A DNA stretch of 64,000 bases from Pseudomonadales bacterium (lineage in GTDB: Bacteria; Pseudomonadota; Gammaproteobacteria; Pseudomonadales; UBA7239): NCBI GenBank assembly GCA_028280345.1, contig JANQLY010000023.1:124001-188000 (forward strand). The letters run 5' to 3'. This document shows, in pieces, positions 5,919 through 21,471 of the stretch. The position numbers were made by a program, and so were the translations under genes. Below the pieces are notes generated by a model. It saw only the letters and a list, made by a program, of their open reading frames with translations, was not told where the DNA came from and searched no databases. Position 1 is the stretch's first letter; every line of letters begins with the position of its first letter.

Positions 5919-7913
5919 TTATTCGCCAGATGTCTCCGCTGCCTCGCCTTCAATGCCCGCTTCTTCCCCGGCTTGCACTGGCGTCACGACATTGATATTA
6001 CTTTCAAATTCGTCAATCAACGGCTTTGCTTCCTTCTCAATCGTAAAGAAGTTATTGCGTTCATTATAGATTTGCTCAAGTTCGCGCATGGAGTTGTAAC
6101 GCTCTTCTGTGACACGGCGATTGTCTTCATCGGAATAAAGAATACGCGGCTGGATAAATACCATAAGGTTTTTCTTGGTCAGCTGTTTTGATGTACCTTT
6201 AAATAGCCAGCCAAGCCCGGGAATATCACCGAGGAAAGGCACCTTGGTTTCGGTATCAAGTAATTCGTCGCGTACCAAACCACCGAGCACGAGAATTTCG
6301 TTATTTCTTACCAGTGCCGTCGTTTTAATTTCGCGCTTGTTAGTAATCAGGTCGGAAGCTCCAGCCACCGATGTCGTGTTAATACTCTCAACTTTCTGCT
6401 CGATTTCCAGCGTGAGCATATTGTTCGGGTTAATCTGGGGTTTAACCTTTAACTGAATACCAATATCTTCACGCTCGATACTGACAAAATCGTTAGTGCT
6501 GTCACGCTCGGTAATACCGGTTTTAAACGGCACGTTCTCACCGACGAGAATCTCTGCCTCTTCATTATCAAGCGCCATTATTGTCGGCTTGGACAATACA
6601 TTCGCACCATCAGTTGCCTCAACAGCATTAATCAAACCACGCAAATCACCATTGGAAAAGTAACCGAGCAACAAGCCTGGTGTCGCATTATCCCCTACCG
6701 CTGGCAAGTTACTCGAATCGTCAGCTGTTACCCCGAAAATACCCGCACCACCGACACCATCAGCCGTATCAGAAGTCTGCCAGAAAACACCAAAGTCACG
6801 CGCAACACCATCATTCACCTCCAGCAACAATGCCTCCACAAGCACCTGCTCACGGCGAATATCGAGTTTCTCAACCACACTTTTAATGGTGTTCATAATC
6901 GAAGGCGGCGCCGTGACTACCAGTGCATTATTACCTTCGTGAGCAAGAATGCTGATTTCGCTTTGCACGATCTGTTGGTCCTTACCGGTCTCAACCACCG
7001 TGCCACTGACACTTTCCAGCATTGTCGCCATTTCCTTGGCATCGGCATAATCGAGGTAGATAACGTGGGTATTACCCTCACCGGCTACGGGCTGATCAAG
7101 TCGCTCAATCAGTTTTCTCATTTGCGTGCGCACCACCGGATCACCACTCATAAGAATACTGTTGGAACGCTCATCCGCTGCAAAGTGCAAAGCCTGGGAC
7201 TGCGGTGCGCCTTCACCGCCGACAATCTTCGGCACAAGTGATGAAATCAGGTCGATAATTTCTTTTGCGCTCGCATGTTTCAATGCAATCACTTCAATAT
7301 CAATTGTGCCCGCCGTATCAATCTGCTCAACGAGCTTAAGAATCTGTTCAATGTTTTTCACCCGTGCCGCCACAATCAGAATATTGGTATTCGCATGGGG
7401 CATGATATGGGCAGTATTTGGAATCAGCGGCTTGATGATATTACTCAGTTGTGGCGCAGCAACGTTATTTACCTTGACGATGTGAATCACCAGATCGTCT
7501 TCCGCTGCACCTTCTGCATCCTCAAGCAACGGTACCGCATTGGTTTTCGCTACCTGGGAAGGAAATATTTTCAGCGCACCTTCAGTTTCCACCACTGCAA
7601 AGCCATTAACCTGTAATACCGACAGAAACGCCTCATAGGCTTCCTGTTTTGTCATCGGCTCACCGGCAATCACTGTGATCTTCTTGCTCTTGGCATTCTC
7701 ATGCACGATGATATTTTTGTCGGTAAGGTCTGCAGCCCAGCGAATCACCTGGATCAGCGGGGCATTATCAAACGAAACCGTAATCTTTTCTTGCTGGGCG
7801 GCCGCACCGGAGCCCAGGCACAACAGGGCGATAACCAGGCCACAACGCAACCCCCACTGCCAGGCACCTTTTATTTTTTGTTTGATGTTCATTGCTTCAC
7901 TCATAAATACCAT
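5919..7913 (-). CDS. gspD: Type II secretion outer-membrane secretin GspD
   Basis: 664 residues. A signal peptide has its hydrophobic core around residues 24-40, ending near GAAAQQEK; in-frame ATGs at 7904 and 7892 are alternative starts. The N0 domain begins ITVSFDNAPLIQVIRWAA, followed by N1-N3 repeats (ANTNILIVAA, RSNSILMSGD, NALVVTAPP). The secretin core holds VPFKTGI, LTLEIEQKVESI and the signature LGGLVRDEL. A C-terminal extension after residue 610 is acidic and could act as an S domain for a pilotin; that is inferred. It forms the outer-membrane pore. Confidence 0.95.
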   Translation of the reverse strand: MVFMSEAMNIKQKIKGAWQWGLRCGLVIALLCLGSGAAAQQEKITVSFDNAPLIQVIRWAADLTDKNIIVHENAKSKKITVIAGEPMTKQEAYEAFLSVLQVNGFAVVETEGALKIFPSQVAKTNAVPLLEDAEGAAEDDLVIHIVKVNNVAAPQLSNIIKPLIPNTAHIMPHANTNILIVAARVKNIEQILKLVEQIDTAGTIDIEVIALKHASAKEIIDLISSLVPKIVGGEGAPQSQALHFAADERSNSILMSGDPVVRTQMRKLIERLDQPVAGEGNTHVIYLDYADAKEMATMLESVSGTVVETGKDQQIVQSEISILAHEGNNALVVTAPPSIMNTIKSVVEKLDIRREQVLVEALLLEVNDGVARDFGVFWQTSDTADGVGGAGIFGVTADDSSNLPAVGDNATPGLLLGYFSNGDLRGLINAVEATDGANVLSKPTIMALDNEEAEILVGENVPFKTGITERDSTNDFVSIEREDIGIQLKVKPQINPNNMLTLEIEQKVESINTTSVAGASDLITNKREIKTTALVRNNEILVLGGLVRDELLDTETKVPFLGDIPGLGWLFKGTSKQLTKKNLMVFIQPRILYSDEDNRRVTEERYNSMRELEQIYNERNNFFTIEKEAKPLIDEFESNINVVTPVQAGEEAGIEGEAAETSGE

Positions 7914-16362: not shown

Positions 16363-17123
16363 TTGCCCTTAGCGTTAATCTCAATAAGATTGCGCTGATA
16401 CGCAACTCCCGCGAAGGCAACTACCCGAATGTCGTTGCCCATGCCCAAACCTGTATTGATGCGGGCGCCCACGGTATCACTGTGCACCCGCGTCCCGATC
16501 TGCGCCATATTCGCCCCGATGATGTAACCAACTTGCATCACCTGCTGGAGCAGCACCCCACAGTAGAATTCAATATAGAAGGCAACCCGTTTGCTGCAGC
16601 CAACGAGCGCTATCCCGGTTTTATCGCTCTTGTGGAACGACATCCGCCACAACAGTGCACCCTGGTACCGGATACTGAAAGCCAGCTAACCTCCGACCAC
16701 GGCTTTGACCTCAACGAGAGTGGCGCGCAACTTGAGCCACTGATAAAAAAACTCAGGGACATTGGCACCCGGGTCAGTCTGTTTATGGATCCGGATCCGC
16801 AACAAATCCGCCTCGCGGCATCTACAGGCGCAGATCGTATTGAACTCTATACTGGGCCATTTGCCGAAGCCTACGCCGACAACCCGAATATCGATACCAC
16901 CAAGCGACTTTTTGAACAACACTGCGCCGCCGCCAGATGTGCTACTGAAGAGGGGCTCGGCATCAATGCCGGACACGACCTTAATCTGGACAATCTGACA
17001 CTCTATAGACAACTGCCGGGCTTGCAGGAAGTGTCTATTGGCCACGCCCTGACGGTTGACGCTATTGCCATGGGACTTGGCAACGCAGTCAAATATTACC
17101 TGGATGTGCTGGACAACAACTGA
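16359..17123 (+). CDS. pdxJ: Pyridoxine 5'-phosphate synthase
   Basis: 254 residues, slightly longer than the usual 240-245. It joins 1-deoxyxylulose 5-phosphate and 3-amino-2-oxopropyl phosphate to make pyridoxine 5'-phosphate in vitamin B6 synthesis. Family motifs: LSVNLNKIALIRNSR, GAHGITVHPRPDLRHI, EFNIEGNP, CTLVPD, VSLFMDPDP, RIELYTGPFAEAY and GINAGHDLNLDN with the phosphate-binding EVSIGHAL. Catalytic Glu and His positions are in place. In enterobacteria pdxJ follows recO; here it sits between the cyclophilin and the transporter genes, overlapping both. Confidence 0.96.
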   Translation: MIALSVNLNKIALIRNSREGNYPNVVAHAQTCIDAGAHGITVHPRPDLRHIRPDDVTNLHHLLEQHPTVEFNIEGNPFAAANERYPGFIALVERHPPQQCTLVPDTESQLTSDHGFDLNESGAQLEPLIKKLRDIGTRVSLFMDPDPQQIRLAASTGADRIELYTGPFAEAYADNPNIDTTKRLFEQHCAAARCATEEGLGINAGHDLNLDNLTLYRQLPGLQEVSIGHALTVDAIAMGLGNAVKYYLDVLDNN

Positions 17124-18637
17124 TGGCAAGCTCTTCAAAAGCAGTTGCTGCTCTCAAGCACATCGAACATCTTGGTAATAAACTGCCCCACCCGACCACA
17201 CTGTTTATTTACCTGTGTGTCTTTGTCATTATCATTTCCGCCATTGCCCAGGCGCTCGGCTTACAGTCTGTACACCCGCAAAGTGGTGCGAGCATCAACA
17301 GCAAAAGCCTGTTAAGCGTTGATGGCCTGCATTATATTTTGACTCACACAGTAAAAAACTTTACCGACTTTGCACCACTTGGCACCGTACTCGTTGCCAT
17401 GCTCGGTATTGGCATCGCTGAAAAATCCGGTTTACTCGGTGCCGTATTACGCATGATCGTACTGCACTCCCCACAAAAACTGCTCACACTATTTGTTGTG
17501 TTTACCGGTGTGCTCTCGAGCCTTGCCGCCGATGCCGGCTACGTAGTACTGATTCCACTCGCTGCACTCCTGTTTGCCTCGGCTGGCCGCCACCCATTGG
17601 GTGGAATTGCTGCCGCATTTGCCGGCGTATCCGGGGGTTATAGTGCCAATCTGTTAATCGGCCCACTTGATGTGATTCTCTCCGGCATTAGCACCGAATC
17701 TGTACAACTCGTTGCAAACGGTGTCACTGTATCCCCACTCGGCAACTACTATTTTATTATTGCCTCCACCTTTCTCGTCACCCTTGTTGCCACACTCGTG
17801 ACCGAAAAACTGGTACTGCCCAGCCTCGAAGATGGCTCACAATCCTGGCAGGCACCACAAGAAAGCGAGACCAGCGCAGCACAGGAAAAACTTGGCCTTC
17901 GTTATGCCGCTATCGCCACCCTTGTCATCGTTGGCGCCCTACTCTATTGCACCTTGCCAGAGAATGCCGTACTGAGAAATCCGCAAACCGGCAGCCTGCT
18001 GAAATCGCCGTTTATTAGCGGCATTGTTACCATCATCGCCCTGTCTATCGCCATTATCGGCATCGCCTATGGCAAGGGCGCACAGACCTTTAAACAAAAA
18101 GACAGCGTGGTAAACGCCATGGAAGACACCATGGCCACCATGGCCGGCTATCTCGTATTAATGTTCTTTGCAGCCCAGTTTGTTAACTACTTCAACTGGA
18201 GCAACCTTGGACTTATCTTTGCCGTCAAAGGTGCCGGCTTTCTGCAACAACTGGATACCAACCCGGCTGTGCTATTAATCAGCTTTATTCTGGTAAGCGC
18301 CATGATCAACCTGTTTATCGGCAGCTCATCTGCGAAATGGTCGATTATGGGTCCCGTGTTTGTACCGATGTTATTCCTGCTTGGCATTTCGCCAGAAGCT
18401 GCACAAATGGCCTACCGCATAGGCGACAGCACCACCAACATCATCACTCCACTGATGCCCTACTTTGCGATTGTGGTAGCGTTTGCACAACGCTGGGATA
18501 AGGAGAGTGGTATTGGCACACTACTCGCGTTGATGATTCCCTATTCGATAGCATTGTTGTTTGCCTGGATGGCGTTACTTGGGATCTGGATATGGTTTGA
18601 GCTGCCGCTTGGGCCAGGGGTGTTTGCTTCTGTTTGA
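17123..18637 (+). CDS. AbgT-family transporter (p-aminobenzoyl-glutamate transporter-like)
   Basis: 504 residues, family length about 510. It begins with a cytosolic helix followed by PHPTTLFIYLCVFVIIISA. About 11-13 membrane segments follow, including the characteristic ADAGYVVLIPLAALLFASAGRHPLGG hairpin, the GVSGGYSANL re-entrant motif, and IGSSSAKWSIMGPVFVPMLF with RIGDSTTNIITPLMPYF near the C-terminus. Members import p-aminobenzoyl-glutamate or export antimetabolites such as sulfonamides using ion gradients. Start ATG shares its A with the pdxJ stop (TGATGG). Substrate here unknown. Confidence 0.93.
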   Translation: MASSSKAVAALKHIEHLGNKLPHPTTLFIYLCVFVIIISAIAQALGLQSVHPQSGASINSKSLLSVDGLHYILTHTVKNFTDFAPLGTVLVAMLGIGIAEKSGLLGAVLRMIVLHSPQKLLTLFVVFTGVLSSLAADAGYVVLIPLAALLFASAGRHPLGGIAAAFAGVSGGYSANLLIGPLDVILSGISTESVQLVANGVTVSPLGNYYFIIASTFLVTLVATLVTEKLVLPSLEDGSQSWQAPQESETSAAQEKLGLRYAAIATLVIVGALLYCTLPENAVLRNPQTGSLLKSPFISGIVTIIALSIAIIGIAYGKGAQTFKQKDSVVNAMEDTMATMAGYLVLMFFAAQFVNYFNWSNLGLIFAVKGAGFLQQLDTNPAVLLISFILVSAMINLFIGSSSAKWSIMGPVFVPMLFLLGISPEAAQMAYRIGDSTTNIITPLMPYFAIVVAFAQRWDKESGIGTLLALMIPYSIALLFAWMALLGIWIWFELPLGPGVFASV

Positions 18638-18673
18638 TTGCTCCTGACGGAGGGTTATTGGTTTCTCATAGCT

Positions 18674-18916
18674 GAGGGCTTTTCTGTTTTTTTGTTATTG
18701 CCATAACGGGGATAACAGGTTCCGCCCTGTTGGGCGGGTTACTTTTGGAAAACCCCAAAAGTAACCAAAAAGGTTTCTGCCAGATAAGCAACCCGAAGGG
18801 TTCCCTCGCTACGCAGATTTCCCACGGGGTCGGCCATATTCGCTCCTGCTCAGATGGCCTGAATTTGCGTCCTGCAAATTCCCCCCTGGAAATCCTGCTC
18901 CGCTCGGTTGCTTATA
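18674..18916. repeat. Left arm of a long inverted repeat flanking one gene
   Basis: About 243 bp that reappear, reverse-complemented and highly similar, at 19972-20236. The arm contains hairpins: CCGCCC-tgtt-GGGCGG (18722-18737), a perfect 12-bp stem GGTTACTTTTGG / CCAAAAGTAACC with a 6-nt loop (18737-18766), GGCCAT / ATGGCC, and GAATTTGC-gtcct-GCAAATTC. The inner part is bounded by ATAAGCAACC and GGTTGCTTAT. The longest runs shared with the right arm cover about 100 bp near 18800-18905. It starts 36 bases after the abgT stop. The rest of the 321-bp gap holds no gene. Confidence 0.92.
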
Positions 18917-18958
18917 TGGCGTATAAGCTACTTACATTTAGTTTCAAAAAGTAAAACA

Positions 18959-19864
18959 TTATTCGTTTCTCAATGCATCCAAGTGTTTCCTTAAAGAATA
19001 TTCCACACCTGACTTACCTCCAATCGTATTATCATAAAAAAGCAACCTAAAGCCTGAAATATCGAATGGCATTTTATCCCTCTTTTTGTCGCTAAGTAGT
19101 ATCGTAGTTTTATTAATTCCATGCGCATATCCTACTTCGTAATAGACATTGGGATTATCCGGTGTAATATCGGCAATAATTAGGGAGGAATCTCTTATTG
19201 CCTGAACAATATCCTCAATAATCAAACCTGTTGTGTACATATCATCAGCTCGAACCACTTCATAACCATACTCATCACATATGGGTGATATCACCTCTTT
19301 ATACAAGGCATTGTACTCATCTGTAAACTGCATCACCACAAACGCTTTAGGCTTTTCTGATGAAAAGCGGATATCCTTTATAATTGCCTCTTCAACCCCC
19401 TTGTATACAATTTCAACTTGCGAGCTATGTATATTCACTCTTGCTTGAGAAACTCTTACTTCGTTAACATACATTGAAAGCAAAGAACCAGTATAGTTAA
19501 TACGAATATTCAGCCACTCATTTATTGGCGGACTAATACCTGGTCCTTGCATACTTTTATCAACCCATCCGCCTTCAATACTTTCAGCAATACCATAGGC
19601 ATAATTTTTAGGGTTTAATGCCACATTAATAAACGAAGGGCCATCTGCTCCTAGATTCACTTGAACTTTATCAGAAGGGTTTTTCAACATAACGGAAAAG
19701 CGAAGCTCTCCCGCTCTAAAATATTCACTTGAGCGCACAAGCGAACCAAAACCTTTTTGATGAACCCCCATAGCCTCTTCCTCTTCAGGAGATAACGGGA
19801 TAAACTTAATCTCGCCCTTTTTTATATCTGCCTGCCCTCTAATTACCAGCCATCCTATAGACAC
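18959..19864 (-). CDS. Jelly-roll plus nucleoside-deoxyribosyltransferase/TIR-like protein, candidate defence effector
   Basis: 301 residues. GTG 19864 is preferred: a GGAGG box lies 7 nt upstream, whereas a TTG one codon earlier is too close to it. Residues about 45-168 look like a concanavalin/LamG-type jelly-roll (YFRAGELRFSVML ... NEWLNIRINYTGSLLSMYVN). Residues 172-300 form a compact alpha/beta domain: KAFVVMQF, RADDMYTTGLIIEDIV, ADITPDNPNVYYEVGYAHG and MPFDISGFRL. That pattern is shared by NDT-fold and TIR-like nucleotide-hydrolysing proteins; E243 is the likely catalytic acid. No signal peptide. Base composition is AT-rich against its neighbours. The gene is alone between two inverted repeat arms. 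The domain reading is fairly sure; a defence role is inference. Confidence 0.85.
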   Translation of the reverse strand: MSIGWLVIRGQADIKKGEIKFIPLSPEEEEAMGVHQKGFGSLVRSSEYFRAGELRFSVMLKNPSDKVQVNLGADGPSFINVALNPKNYAYGIAESIEGGWVDKSMQGPGISPPINEWLNIRINYTGSLLSMYVNEVRVSQARVNIHSSQVEIVYKGVEEAIIKDIRFSSEKPKAFVVMQFTDEYNALYKEVISPICDEYGYEVVRADDMYTTGLIIEDIVQAIRDSSLIIADITPDNPNVYYEVGYAHGINKTTILLSDKKRDKMPFDISGFRLLFYDNTIGGKSGVEYSLRKHLDALRNE

Positions 19865-19971
19865 CAATTTTCCTCCCCAAACTCAAAATCTCTAAATACT
19901 CTTAAATATATCATTCATTTATTGTCGTGGAACCTACCCCAAAAGGTAGTAACTGGCACCTTCATACTCCT

Positions 19972-20236
19972 TATAAGCAACCGAGCGAAGCAGGATTTCC
20001 AGGGGTGAATTTGCAGGACGCAAATTCAGGCCATCTGAGCAGGAGCGAATATGGCCGACCCCGTGGGAATCTGCGTAGCGAGGGAACCCTTCAGGGTTGC
20101 TTATAGGAGACAGCGTTTTTGGTTACTTTTGTCGCCACAAAAGTAACAACCCCGTCTGGCAAGACGAATGCCGCGCCCAACAGGACGGAACCTGTTACCC
20201 CCGTTATGACAATAACAAAGAAATAGAAAAGCCCTC
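19972..20236. repeat. Right arm of the long inverted repeat
   Basis: About 265 bp matching the left arm (18674-18916) in reverse complement. Near-identical blocks include the segments holding GGCCAT/ATGGCC and GAATTTGC/GCAAATTC. The middle part has diverged: here the hairpin is an 11-bp perfect stem GTTACTTTTGT / ACAAAAGTAAC with a 4-nt loop (20122-20147), and about 20 extra bases are present. The arm ends 16 bases before the stop of the dksA-like gene. The bases between the cassette gene and this arm (19865-19971) are AT-rich with no gene apparent. Confidence 0.92.
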
Positions 20237-20252
20237 CGCCAGGAGAAGAAAC

Positions 20253-20606
20253 CTACTCCACCTCCTCCTGGCAGGAAATACAAAACCGTGCCTCTGGTTT
20301 TATTTCCAACCTCGCAAAAGGAATCTCCTCATCACACGCTTCGCAGTAGCCATAATCATCTTTCTCCATGCCCGCCAGCGCGGCAATAATTTCCCGCAAG
20401 GATTTCTCGTATGCCGAGCGATTCGCTATCGCCATTTGCTGTTGCTGCAAGGCATCACCACGGGAAACACGCCCTACTTTGGTTTGATCGAGCTCAACGG
20501 TTGCCGCTCGTTCCACCGAGTCACTGAGCAGTTGCTCAAGCTCTGTTTTCTTTGACATCAGGGTTTCGCGGAGTTGTTTTTGCTGTTGTTCGTTGAGGTG
20601 TTCCAT
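20253..20606 (-). CDS. TraR/DksA-family zinc-finger protein (YbiI-like)
   Basis: 117 residues. An N-terminal helical hairpin (residues 1-75) includes ELDQTKVGRVSRGDALQQQQ, the pattern seen in short DksA paralogues such as YbiI. It is followed by a four-cysteine zinc finger, CEACDEEIPFARLEIKPEA with a second CISC pair. DksA proteins bind the RNA polymerase secondary channel. This form lacks the longer coiled coil of true DksA (about 150 residues), so ppGpp-dependent activity is uncertain. ATG 20606, with its promoter shared divergently with the methyltransferase gene at 20704. Confidence 0.88.
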   Translation of the reverse strand: MEHLNEQQQKQLRETLMSKKTELEQLLSDSVERAATVELDQTKVGRVSRGDALQQQQMAIANRSAYEKSLREIIAALAGMEKDDYGYCEACDEEIPFARLEIKPEARFCISCQEEVE

Positions 20607-20703
20607 ATCTACTTAACTATAAGCGCTTAATTTAAAACTATAATTTTTCCGGAAAGCTGCTTATTATACGCGCAATTATGTAAGCAGAGACAACGAAAGG
20701 CGA

Positions 20704-21471
20704 ATGAGCGACACCCCGCCCGATTTTGACAAGTTATTGACGATTTATGGTCGCAAACCGGTGCTTGAGGCATTGGAAGATAACAGTCTTGATATTTTCA
20801 AGCTGCATCTGGCCAGCAGTAATAAAAGTGCTGACATTATTAAACAGATCACTACTCTTGCCAAACAACGCAATATCGACATTGCAATGCATAGCAAGCT
20901 GGAGCTATCGCGCATTTCCAAAAACAGCCGTCAGGATCAAGGTGTGGCTCTTGATGTGGTCATGCCGAATTTCCTTAAGCCGAAACAGTTACTCAATCAT
21001 TCAGGAGGCTCACAATCCGGCATTTCAGTAATGGCGATTGATGGTGTGACTAACCCGCAAAATCTGGGCATGATTATTCGTTCGGTATGCGCAAGCCCGA
21101 TGACCTATCTACTGATCCCAAAGAAAGGCTGCGCGAAGCTTGATTCGCTGGTGATCAAAGCCAGTGCGGGTACTTTGTTCAAGGCAAGTATTGTGCGTTG
21201 TAATAATCTTGCAGAGACTCTACAACAACTACGCAACGATGGTTTTCGTGTGGTAACACTGTCTGCCGATGGCGAACAGTCGATATTTAATTATCAAAAA
21301 CAAGGCAATACAGTTTTTATTGTGGGCAGTGAAAGTGAAGGCATTAGTGCGGCTTGTGAAAAACTCGCGGACACTTCGGTTTATATTCCAATGAATAATA
21401 ATGTAGAGTCGCTGAATGCTGCAGTCAGTGCAGCCTTGCTTGCGTTTATTAGCGGTCAGCCTGCCAACTAA
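20704..21471 (+). CDS. TrmH/SpoU-family RNA 2'-O-methyltransferase
   Basis: 255 residues. An N-terminal substrate-binding domain (residues 8-90: YGRKPVLEALEDN, a typical L30e-like start) is joined to a SPOUT methyltransferase domain (about 105-255). The latter has motif 1 IDGVTNPQNLGMIIRS, motif 2 FIVGSESEGIS and motif 3 VYIPMNNNVESLNAAVSAAL, which form the trefoil knot binding S-adenosylmethionine. It methylates a ribose 2'-OH in rRNA or tRNA. It is RlmB-like in layout but diverged, so the target base is unknown. Convergent with the neighbouring signalling operon, separated by 2 bp. Confidence 0.92.
   Translation: MSDTPPDFDKLLTIYGRKPVLEALEDNSLDIFKLHLASSNKSADIIKQITTLAKQRNIDIAMHSKLELSRISKNSRQDQGVALDVVMPNFLKPKQLLNHSGGSQSGISVMAIDGVTNPQNLGMIIRSVCASPMTYLLIPKKGCAKLDSLVIKASAGTLFKASIVRCNNLAETLQQLRNDGFRVVTLSADGEQSIFNYQKQGNTVFIVGSESEGISAACEKLADTSVYIPMNNNVESLNAAVSAALLAFISGQPAN

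Follow-up and report, generated by a model that had tools for sequence, protein, structure and literature searches.

How does a single gene, poorer in GC than its surroundings, come to lie between two long inverted repeats in the gap between two convergent genes, with no transposase in sight? The window, the 64,000-nucleotide stretch of Pseudomonadales DNA that we analysed, poses this question where an abgT gene and a dksA/traR-like gene converge on such a cassette (Table 1). The original prediction was that the cassette is a passively mobilised or recombination-prone cargo slot. We conclude, with a probability of about 0.6, that the window shows one case of a recurrent gene slot that has no recombinase of its own, in which facing structured repeats of about 200 bp (the arms) enclose either a short spacer or cargo, and in which cargo is presumably exchanged through the arms.

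The arms match each other in inverted orientation at 81.3% identity over 289 columns (E 8e-77, in a single alignment from a 17-kb stretch), and the inverted repeat that they form comprises pieces of 106, 74 and 31 nt that are 96%, 89% and 94% complementary, respectively. Both this alignment and the ORF list agree with the claim that long inverted arms bracket one gene between convergent abgT and dksA-like genes. The arms exist as predicted but are slightly longer than the 243 and 265 bp first reported, and the spare bases therefore number 25 between the abgT stop and the left arm and 5 between the right arm and the dksA-like stop, rather than 36 and 16. The inter-arm space holds one gene-size ORF. 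Its low GC content had also been noticed correctly: in 500-base windows the fraction is 0.37-0.41 in the cargo gene, compared with 0.48-0.55 in abgT and 0.42-0.52 on the dksA-like side. We rejected a composite transposon because, as first noted, the ORF list shows no transposase within the cassette, and none is coded by the arms. The longest ORFs over the arms are 59-74 aa, with the exception of one of 152 aa that extends beyond the right arm.

Table 1. Features of the cassette and its neighbours, in coordinates of the window
Feature	Position	Strand	Basis
Left flanking gene, AbgT-family transporter	17123..18637	+	Pfam PF03806, E 1.2e-189
Left arm: outer segment, P1, multibranched core	18663..18924	+	Inverted repeat; model R2, 182 bits at 18724-18925
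Hairpin P1 of left arm, GTTACTTTTG..CAAAAGTAAC type	18737..18766	.	12-nt perfect inverted repeat, 6-nt loop
Cargo gene, 302 aa: N-terminal jelly-roll, putative C-terminal NDT/TIR-like domain	18959..19867	-	ORF; PADLOC; Pfam; structure model and fold search
Right arm, inverted copy of left arm	19964..20247	-	Inverted repeat; model R2, 177 bits
Hairpin P1 of right arm	20122..20147	.	Read from sequence; arm fold
Right flanking gene, dksA/traR-like zinc-finger protein	20253..20606	-	Pfam PF01258, E 2.9e-13

Each arm of the window is composed of an outer segment, the hairpin P1 (GTTACTTTTG..CAAAAGTAAC) and a multibranched core. The outermost segment is common to the two window arms only, and other copies align from nearer P1. 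Within the genome the two window arms are reciprocal best matches (0.86, versus at most 0.78 to other arms).

Strong covariation strongly supports maintenance of the arm fold. As single-stranded DNA, the window arms fold far better than shuffled sequences (z -6.9 and -5.0). Across 71 arms, in an alignment that was fitted to the tested structure and so is biased toward it, 91.2% of cells fall in standard pairs, 50 of 50 pairs contain compensatory changes and there are 844 double changes versus 227; the controls nevertheless stay far below, at 62.0% when shuffled and 42-51% when slid. In its two adjacent hairpins the arm core resembles the TwoAYGGAY RNA (RF01731, clan CL00106), and some homologous arms score above the threshold of that family, which is 43. 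These are the arms of L137 (55.2 and 48.3 bits) and L121 (47.5 and 47.1 bits), four matches in 2 of the 15 loci tested, all on the strand read outward from the spacer. The right arm of C8, in the same genome as the window, scores 42.9, and the window arms have no match to RF01731 at E<=1 over positions 18000-21000. Both window arms, and 35 of the 71 arms overall, present GGA outward in both core hairpin loops. The available part of one report classes TwoAYGGAY as probably RNA and probably not cis-regulatory (PMC2864571), and that of another proposes CsrA binding (PMC4333381). The elements described here add the hairpin P1, form facing pairs and enclose genes, none of which is described for TwoAYGGAY in the available parts of these two sources (PMC2864571, PMC4333381).

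The arms are not unique to this locus. BLAST of the left arm against its own genome gave 9 matches, including itself and the right arm. Two covariance models, R1 built from 8 arm copies and R2 from 32 arms, both with short calibration, gave 21 matches at E<=1, several of them fragments, and 15 matches at E<=0.01, respectively. In larger surveys, for which 6-9 candidates were scored per genome and the window's own genome was counted, R1 matched 33 of 274 genomes of the class and R2 matched 84 of 390 genomes of the order. By BLAST, the window arm was present in 2 of 37 genomes, namely its own and a further one in which the match was short, and absent from the 3 genomes of the same family, all from other genera. 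A plasmid or phage source of the arms was rejected, as the left arm had no match in a plasmid collection and one doublet searched against phages had none. Plasmid records were matched by two other doublets (13 and 14 records, respectively), but in most cases the match covered 46-68 bp at P1; a Variovorax plasmid record carries an arm pair.

Six places on the fusobacterial Ilyobacter polytropus plasmid pILYOP01 (L213) match a P1-like hairpin of a betaproteobacterial-looking doublet. Genome G148 contains about 10 further matches of 100-150 bp that cover the core of one arm only (e.g., C10:135510, C11:39386 and C12:220077); these look like a second, shorter dispersed element, either derived from the arms or parent to them. 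In the genome of the window (C7, L108 6961-8273), a DM13-domain gene has a strong arm on one side and what may be a second arm on the other. Because this second arm (6961-7024) was recognised by R1 (E 0.0027) and not by R2, it is uncertain whether this is a second filled slot in the same genome.

Arms tend to face each other. We took every R1 match at E<=0.01 in 93 loci (132 matches after removal of 6 overlapping rows); neighbouring arms at most 3 kb apart formed 39 pairs; in 36 of these the arms are oriented toward each other, in 2 they are direct and in 1 they point outward. The spacer is at most 232 bp in 29 of the 36 facing pairs. Loci scored only with R2 stand outside this count and include exceptions: direct pairs at L228 and L230, same-direction pairs at L270 and L293, and an alternating array at L226. 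Thus, the facing rule is strong but not absolute. The array (L226 2790-4141, in G440) has five consecutive arms of alternating orientation between two convergent genes. Its three minus-strand arms are 94-98% identical, and it reads as a doublet array without cargo in which outward neighbours are present. At L230 (2819-3443, in G480), two direct arm copies about 200 bp apart are 99% identical, the product of a recent tandem duplication.

Doublets also recur within genomes. G148 has 10 further full-length doublets that are 86-93% identical to one query doublet; they pair two different arm types, and arms of the same type are mostly more than 0.9 alike across loci. Doublets are common to G148 and its congener G264 at three sites, two of which also have both flanks in common and the third one flank, so some doublets are old. 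At one shared site the spacer is 347 bp in G148 versus 42 bp in G264. Arms that are far apart are more alike than arms that are close: the median likeness is 0.87 for the 13 pairs with spacers of at least 500 bp, one of which (L180) lacks a clear cargo ORF, and 0.77 for the 37 pairs with spacers below 300 bp (p 1.8e-4, with L258, L266-L268 and L272 left out). The higher likeness of arms around cargo speaks for exchange through the arms, but it could instead reflect loss of near-perfect palindromes with short spacers. Against such exchange, the arms of a cassette are not each other's best match in G070 and G161.

Filled slots are found in other genomes. Seventeen cassettes in 12 genomes enclose ORFs of at least 110 aa and have both arms found by covariance model; the regions were chosen for arms already seen, and the share of filled slots is therefore no rate. 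They are the window, L125 and L205 (both in G070), L128, L137, L147, L181, L210, L222 and L225, together with L223, L224, L266, L267 and L268 in G396, L258 in G369 and L272 in G421. L206 and L270 were left out of this count, their two model matches pointing the same way, as were L130, L208, L269 and L271, where the model found only one arm. The cargo varies. For example, it is a staphylococcal-nuclease-like protein in L137, an MNT-type nucleotidyltransferase and a C-terminal portion of PD-Lambda-1, a defence protein, in L128, a HEPN protein in L222, a DUF6731 protein in L225, a GIY-YIG protein in L268 and an alpha/beta hydrolase in L272. When 25 cargo proteins were compared with one another (some from loci outside the 17, a few small ORFs being left out), a single pair was similar at E<1e-3, over 47 residues. 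Two cassettes of one genome, L223 and L224, have right arms that are 96% identical and different cargo. Pfam gave no match for many of the cargo proteins, and PADLOC gave none for most of those scanned, so a defence role for the class is only hinted at. By the ORF lists, the flanking genes converge at 11 of the 17 cassettes, do not converge at 4 (L128, L181, L266 and L268) and cannot be judged at 2 (L137 and L147). From their translations, inspected by eye, we take many of the flanking genes to be waaA, gcvP, cutC, rlmKL, ygiQ, hisA, mdh, argH, gltA and a porin gene.

The most informative comparison is at a site between rlmKL-like and ygiQ-like genes in all 10 genomes examined from the family of G396, another family of the order. 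In G464, G484 and G504, where the model gives no arm match, 3-11 bp separate the two stop codons. In G396 and G369, which belong to one genus, the flanks and arms align at 81-87% and the interior alone differs, with a 200-aa ORF in the former and a 148-aa ORF in the latter. A conserved stretch extends nearly up to the beginning of each ORF; at other loci of these two genomes, a similar one lies next to an arm. In G339, G443, G421 and G524 the site holds other genes and no arms were found by the model, from which it follows that genes also enter without arms. Only one flank was recovered in G544.

A similar exchange is seen at another site, beside a conserved neighbour gene: G396 (L268) has a 276-aa GIY-YIG protein and G369 (L271) a 200-aa HEPN protein. 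This exchange does not span both arms: the conserved gene intervenes, and in L271 a single arm was found by the model. These two exchanges are among nine arm-bearing sites that BLAST paired between 15 loci of G396 and 14 of G369. Four others have no cargo in either genome (L277 was called cargo-free from a 194-bp gap). L266/L269 shows a more complex difference, at L284/L283 G396 has an additional gene of 443 aa next to the one arm recognised there, and L275/L270 has an arginase-family gene common to both genomes with further DNA in G396. About 190 bp between the left arm and the start of unlike cargo genes is conserved at L223, L258, L267 and L271; this stretch may serve as a promoter or as a site of exchange. 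On inspection by eye, a dif-like site in the G396 leader was unconvincing and was dropped.

The expectation that the slot might hold different genes, or none, in other strains is supported for arm pairs elsewhere in the order and beyond the window's own family: arm pairs with differing cargo occur in other genomes, and the empty and exchanged orthologous sites are those of another family of the order. Our data support the cargo-slot idea for the class of facing arm pairs, and its strongest evidence comes from that other family.

The cargo of the window is a protein with a lectin fold and an NDT/TIR-like domain, possibly a defence effector. Residues 149-301 match a PADLOC TIR effector (4.2e-19), and the C-terminal domain reaches 24.2 bits against Pfam PF05014 (Nuc_deoxyrib_tr), under the cut-off of 28.8. 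An AlphaFold model (mean pLDDT 81, pTM 0.59) predicts an N-terminal jelly-roll and a C-terminal alpha/beta domain. The best PDB match of the jelly-roll is the carbohydrate-binding module CBM66, in a fold search whose 50 listed matches all concern the N-terminal domain. Relatives with 38-50% identity were found in Vibrio, a Campylobacterales MAG, Chryseobacterium, Thiosymbion and a Bacillota MAG, and no arms were seen around them in the 10 loci inspected, which have unlike surroundings. The distribution of the gene is scattered, and it may act in defence.

Two structured repeats of about 200 bp thus face each other between flanking genes, with an interior that is either a short spacer or one or a few cargo genes. 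We propose that the arms act as homology handles: through homologous recombination, DNA arriving with a similar pair of arms would exchange the interior for its own. The arm hairpins might also end transcription from the flanking genes, in which case a newly arrived gene would do little harm; the excess of terminator-like sites in the region (6, compared with 1.9 +- 1.6 in shuffles) fits this. In the genome of the window, the slot holds an NDT/TIR-like gene that may act in defence. Against this, the empty sites lack arms altogether, so arms and cargo may arrive together, an outcome not expected from recombination between resident arms by itself.

Two other explanations deserve consideration. 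The arm pair could be a non-autonomous transposable element of the MITE or mobile-insertion-cassette kind that depends on a transposase acting in trans from elsewhere and carries the gene as passenger. Doublets have spread as units, given the 10 further copies in G148 and the recurrence of the same two arm types together at different sites, and cassette and arms are missing together at the empty rlmKL site. However, inspection by eye of 9 aligned G148 doublets revealed no target-site duplication, and a search of the window's own genome for the Y1 family gave no parent element for the arms, the sole Y1 transposase found being flanked by another repeat. In addition, the exchange at the rlmKL site leaves flanks and arms in place. 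We consider movement in trans unlikely. Of the original prediction, the slot is supported for the class of arm pairs, and passive mobilisation stays hypothetical, with no target-site duplication evident in those doublets and no helper identified.

Alternatively, the arms could be mere 3'-end elements of the flanking genes, either terminators or RNA elements. The gene would then be one that simply inserted at a harmless and insulated place, and its arrival would not involve the arms. The arms do lie near stop codons, with P1 nearest, and single arms also occur. The cassette region contains 6 terminator-like sites, 4 of them inside the arms, compared with 1.9 +- 1.6 in shuffles. Genes without arms enter the rlmKL site as well, and the intergenic repeats of P. 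fluorescens have a tail-to-tail bias, according to the available part of the report (PMC2718517). Against this, the exchange between G396 and G369 at the rlmKL site does not reach beyond the arms, conservation next to the left arm continues at several loci nearly as far as the beginning of different cargos, and 12 genomes have facing pairs that enclose unlike genes. We judge it improbable that the arms play no part, and we favor a slot whose interior would be exchanged through them.

Such a slot shares features with several known systems. MITEs and mobile insertion cassettes have inverted ends and a passenger gene and lack a transposase, as does the cassette described here; the difference is that here the ends are structured arms of about 200 bp and the interior is exchanged at a fixed site. 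REPINs, associated with RAYTs, are paired, inverted, structured repeats that lie between genes and spread within a genome. The arms are likewise paired, inverted, structured and intergenic, but they are about 10 times longer and have cargo genes inside. RAYT-driven REPINs were rejected, as the one Y1 transposase found in the window's own genome has a different inverted repeat at its ends. This gene, which encodes a 286-aa RAYT-like protein (L052, G000:C2, about 141022), adjoins a tRNA-like sequence and is flanked by inverted AAAATAGATCCGTCCCC-type repeats, and direct repeats of 100 bp with 98% identity are separated by 1.9 kb; the locus looks like a small separate island. Integron cassettes have folded, direct attC-type sites and exchangeable genes in an array served by the IntI integrase. 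As folded sites beside exchangeable genes the arms recall that arrangement, and so does the stretch that G396 and G369 conserve immediately upstream of cargos that differ. In contrast, the sites here are inverted rather than direct and form a single slot rather than an array, and no integrase is among the ORFs listed beside the cassettes. We found no published description of this arrangement in a search of titles and abstract openings, with most subscription journals and preprints outside its range.

A broader possibility, which we entertain tentatively and at somewhat less than even odds, is that these slots form a gene-capture platform that is widespread in Gammaproteobacteria and can do without an integrase of its own. 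Facing, RNA-like folded repeats at the ends of core genes would there allow accessory genes (nuclease, HEPN, TIR-like) to be swapped through the arms, and in some lineages the swapped gene would immediately follow a fixed leader. If slots of this kind are general, they would explain solitary accessory or defence-like genes that lie between core genes without a visible mobile element, and arm pairs would provide a simple handle for finding such genes. The TwoAYGGAY family, which has no proven role in the available parts of the reports on it (PMC2864571, PMC4333381), would then gain a testable biological setting.
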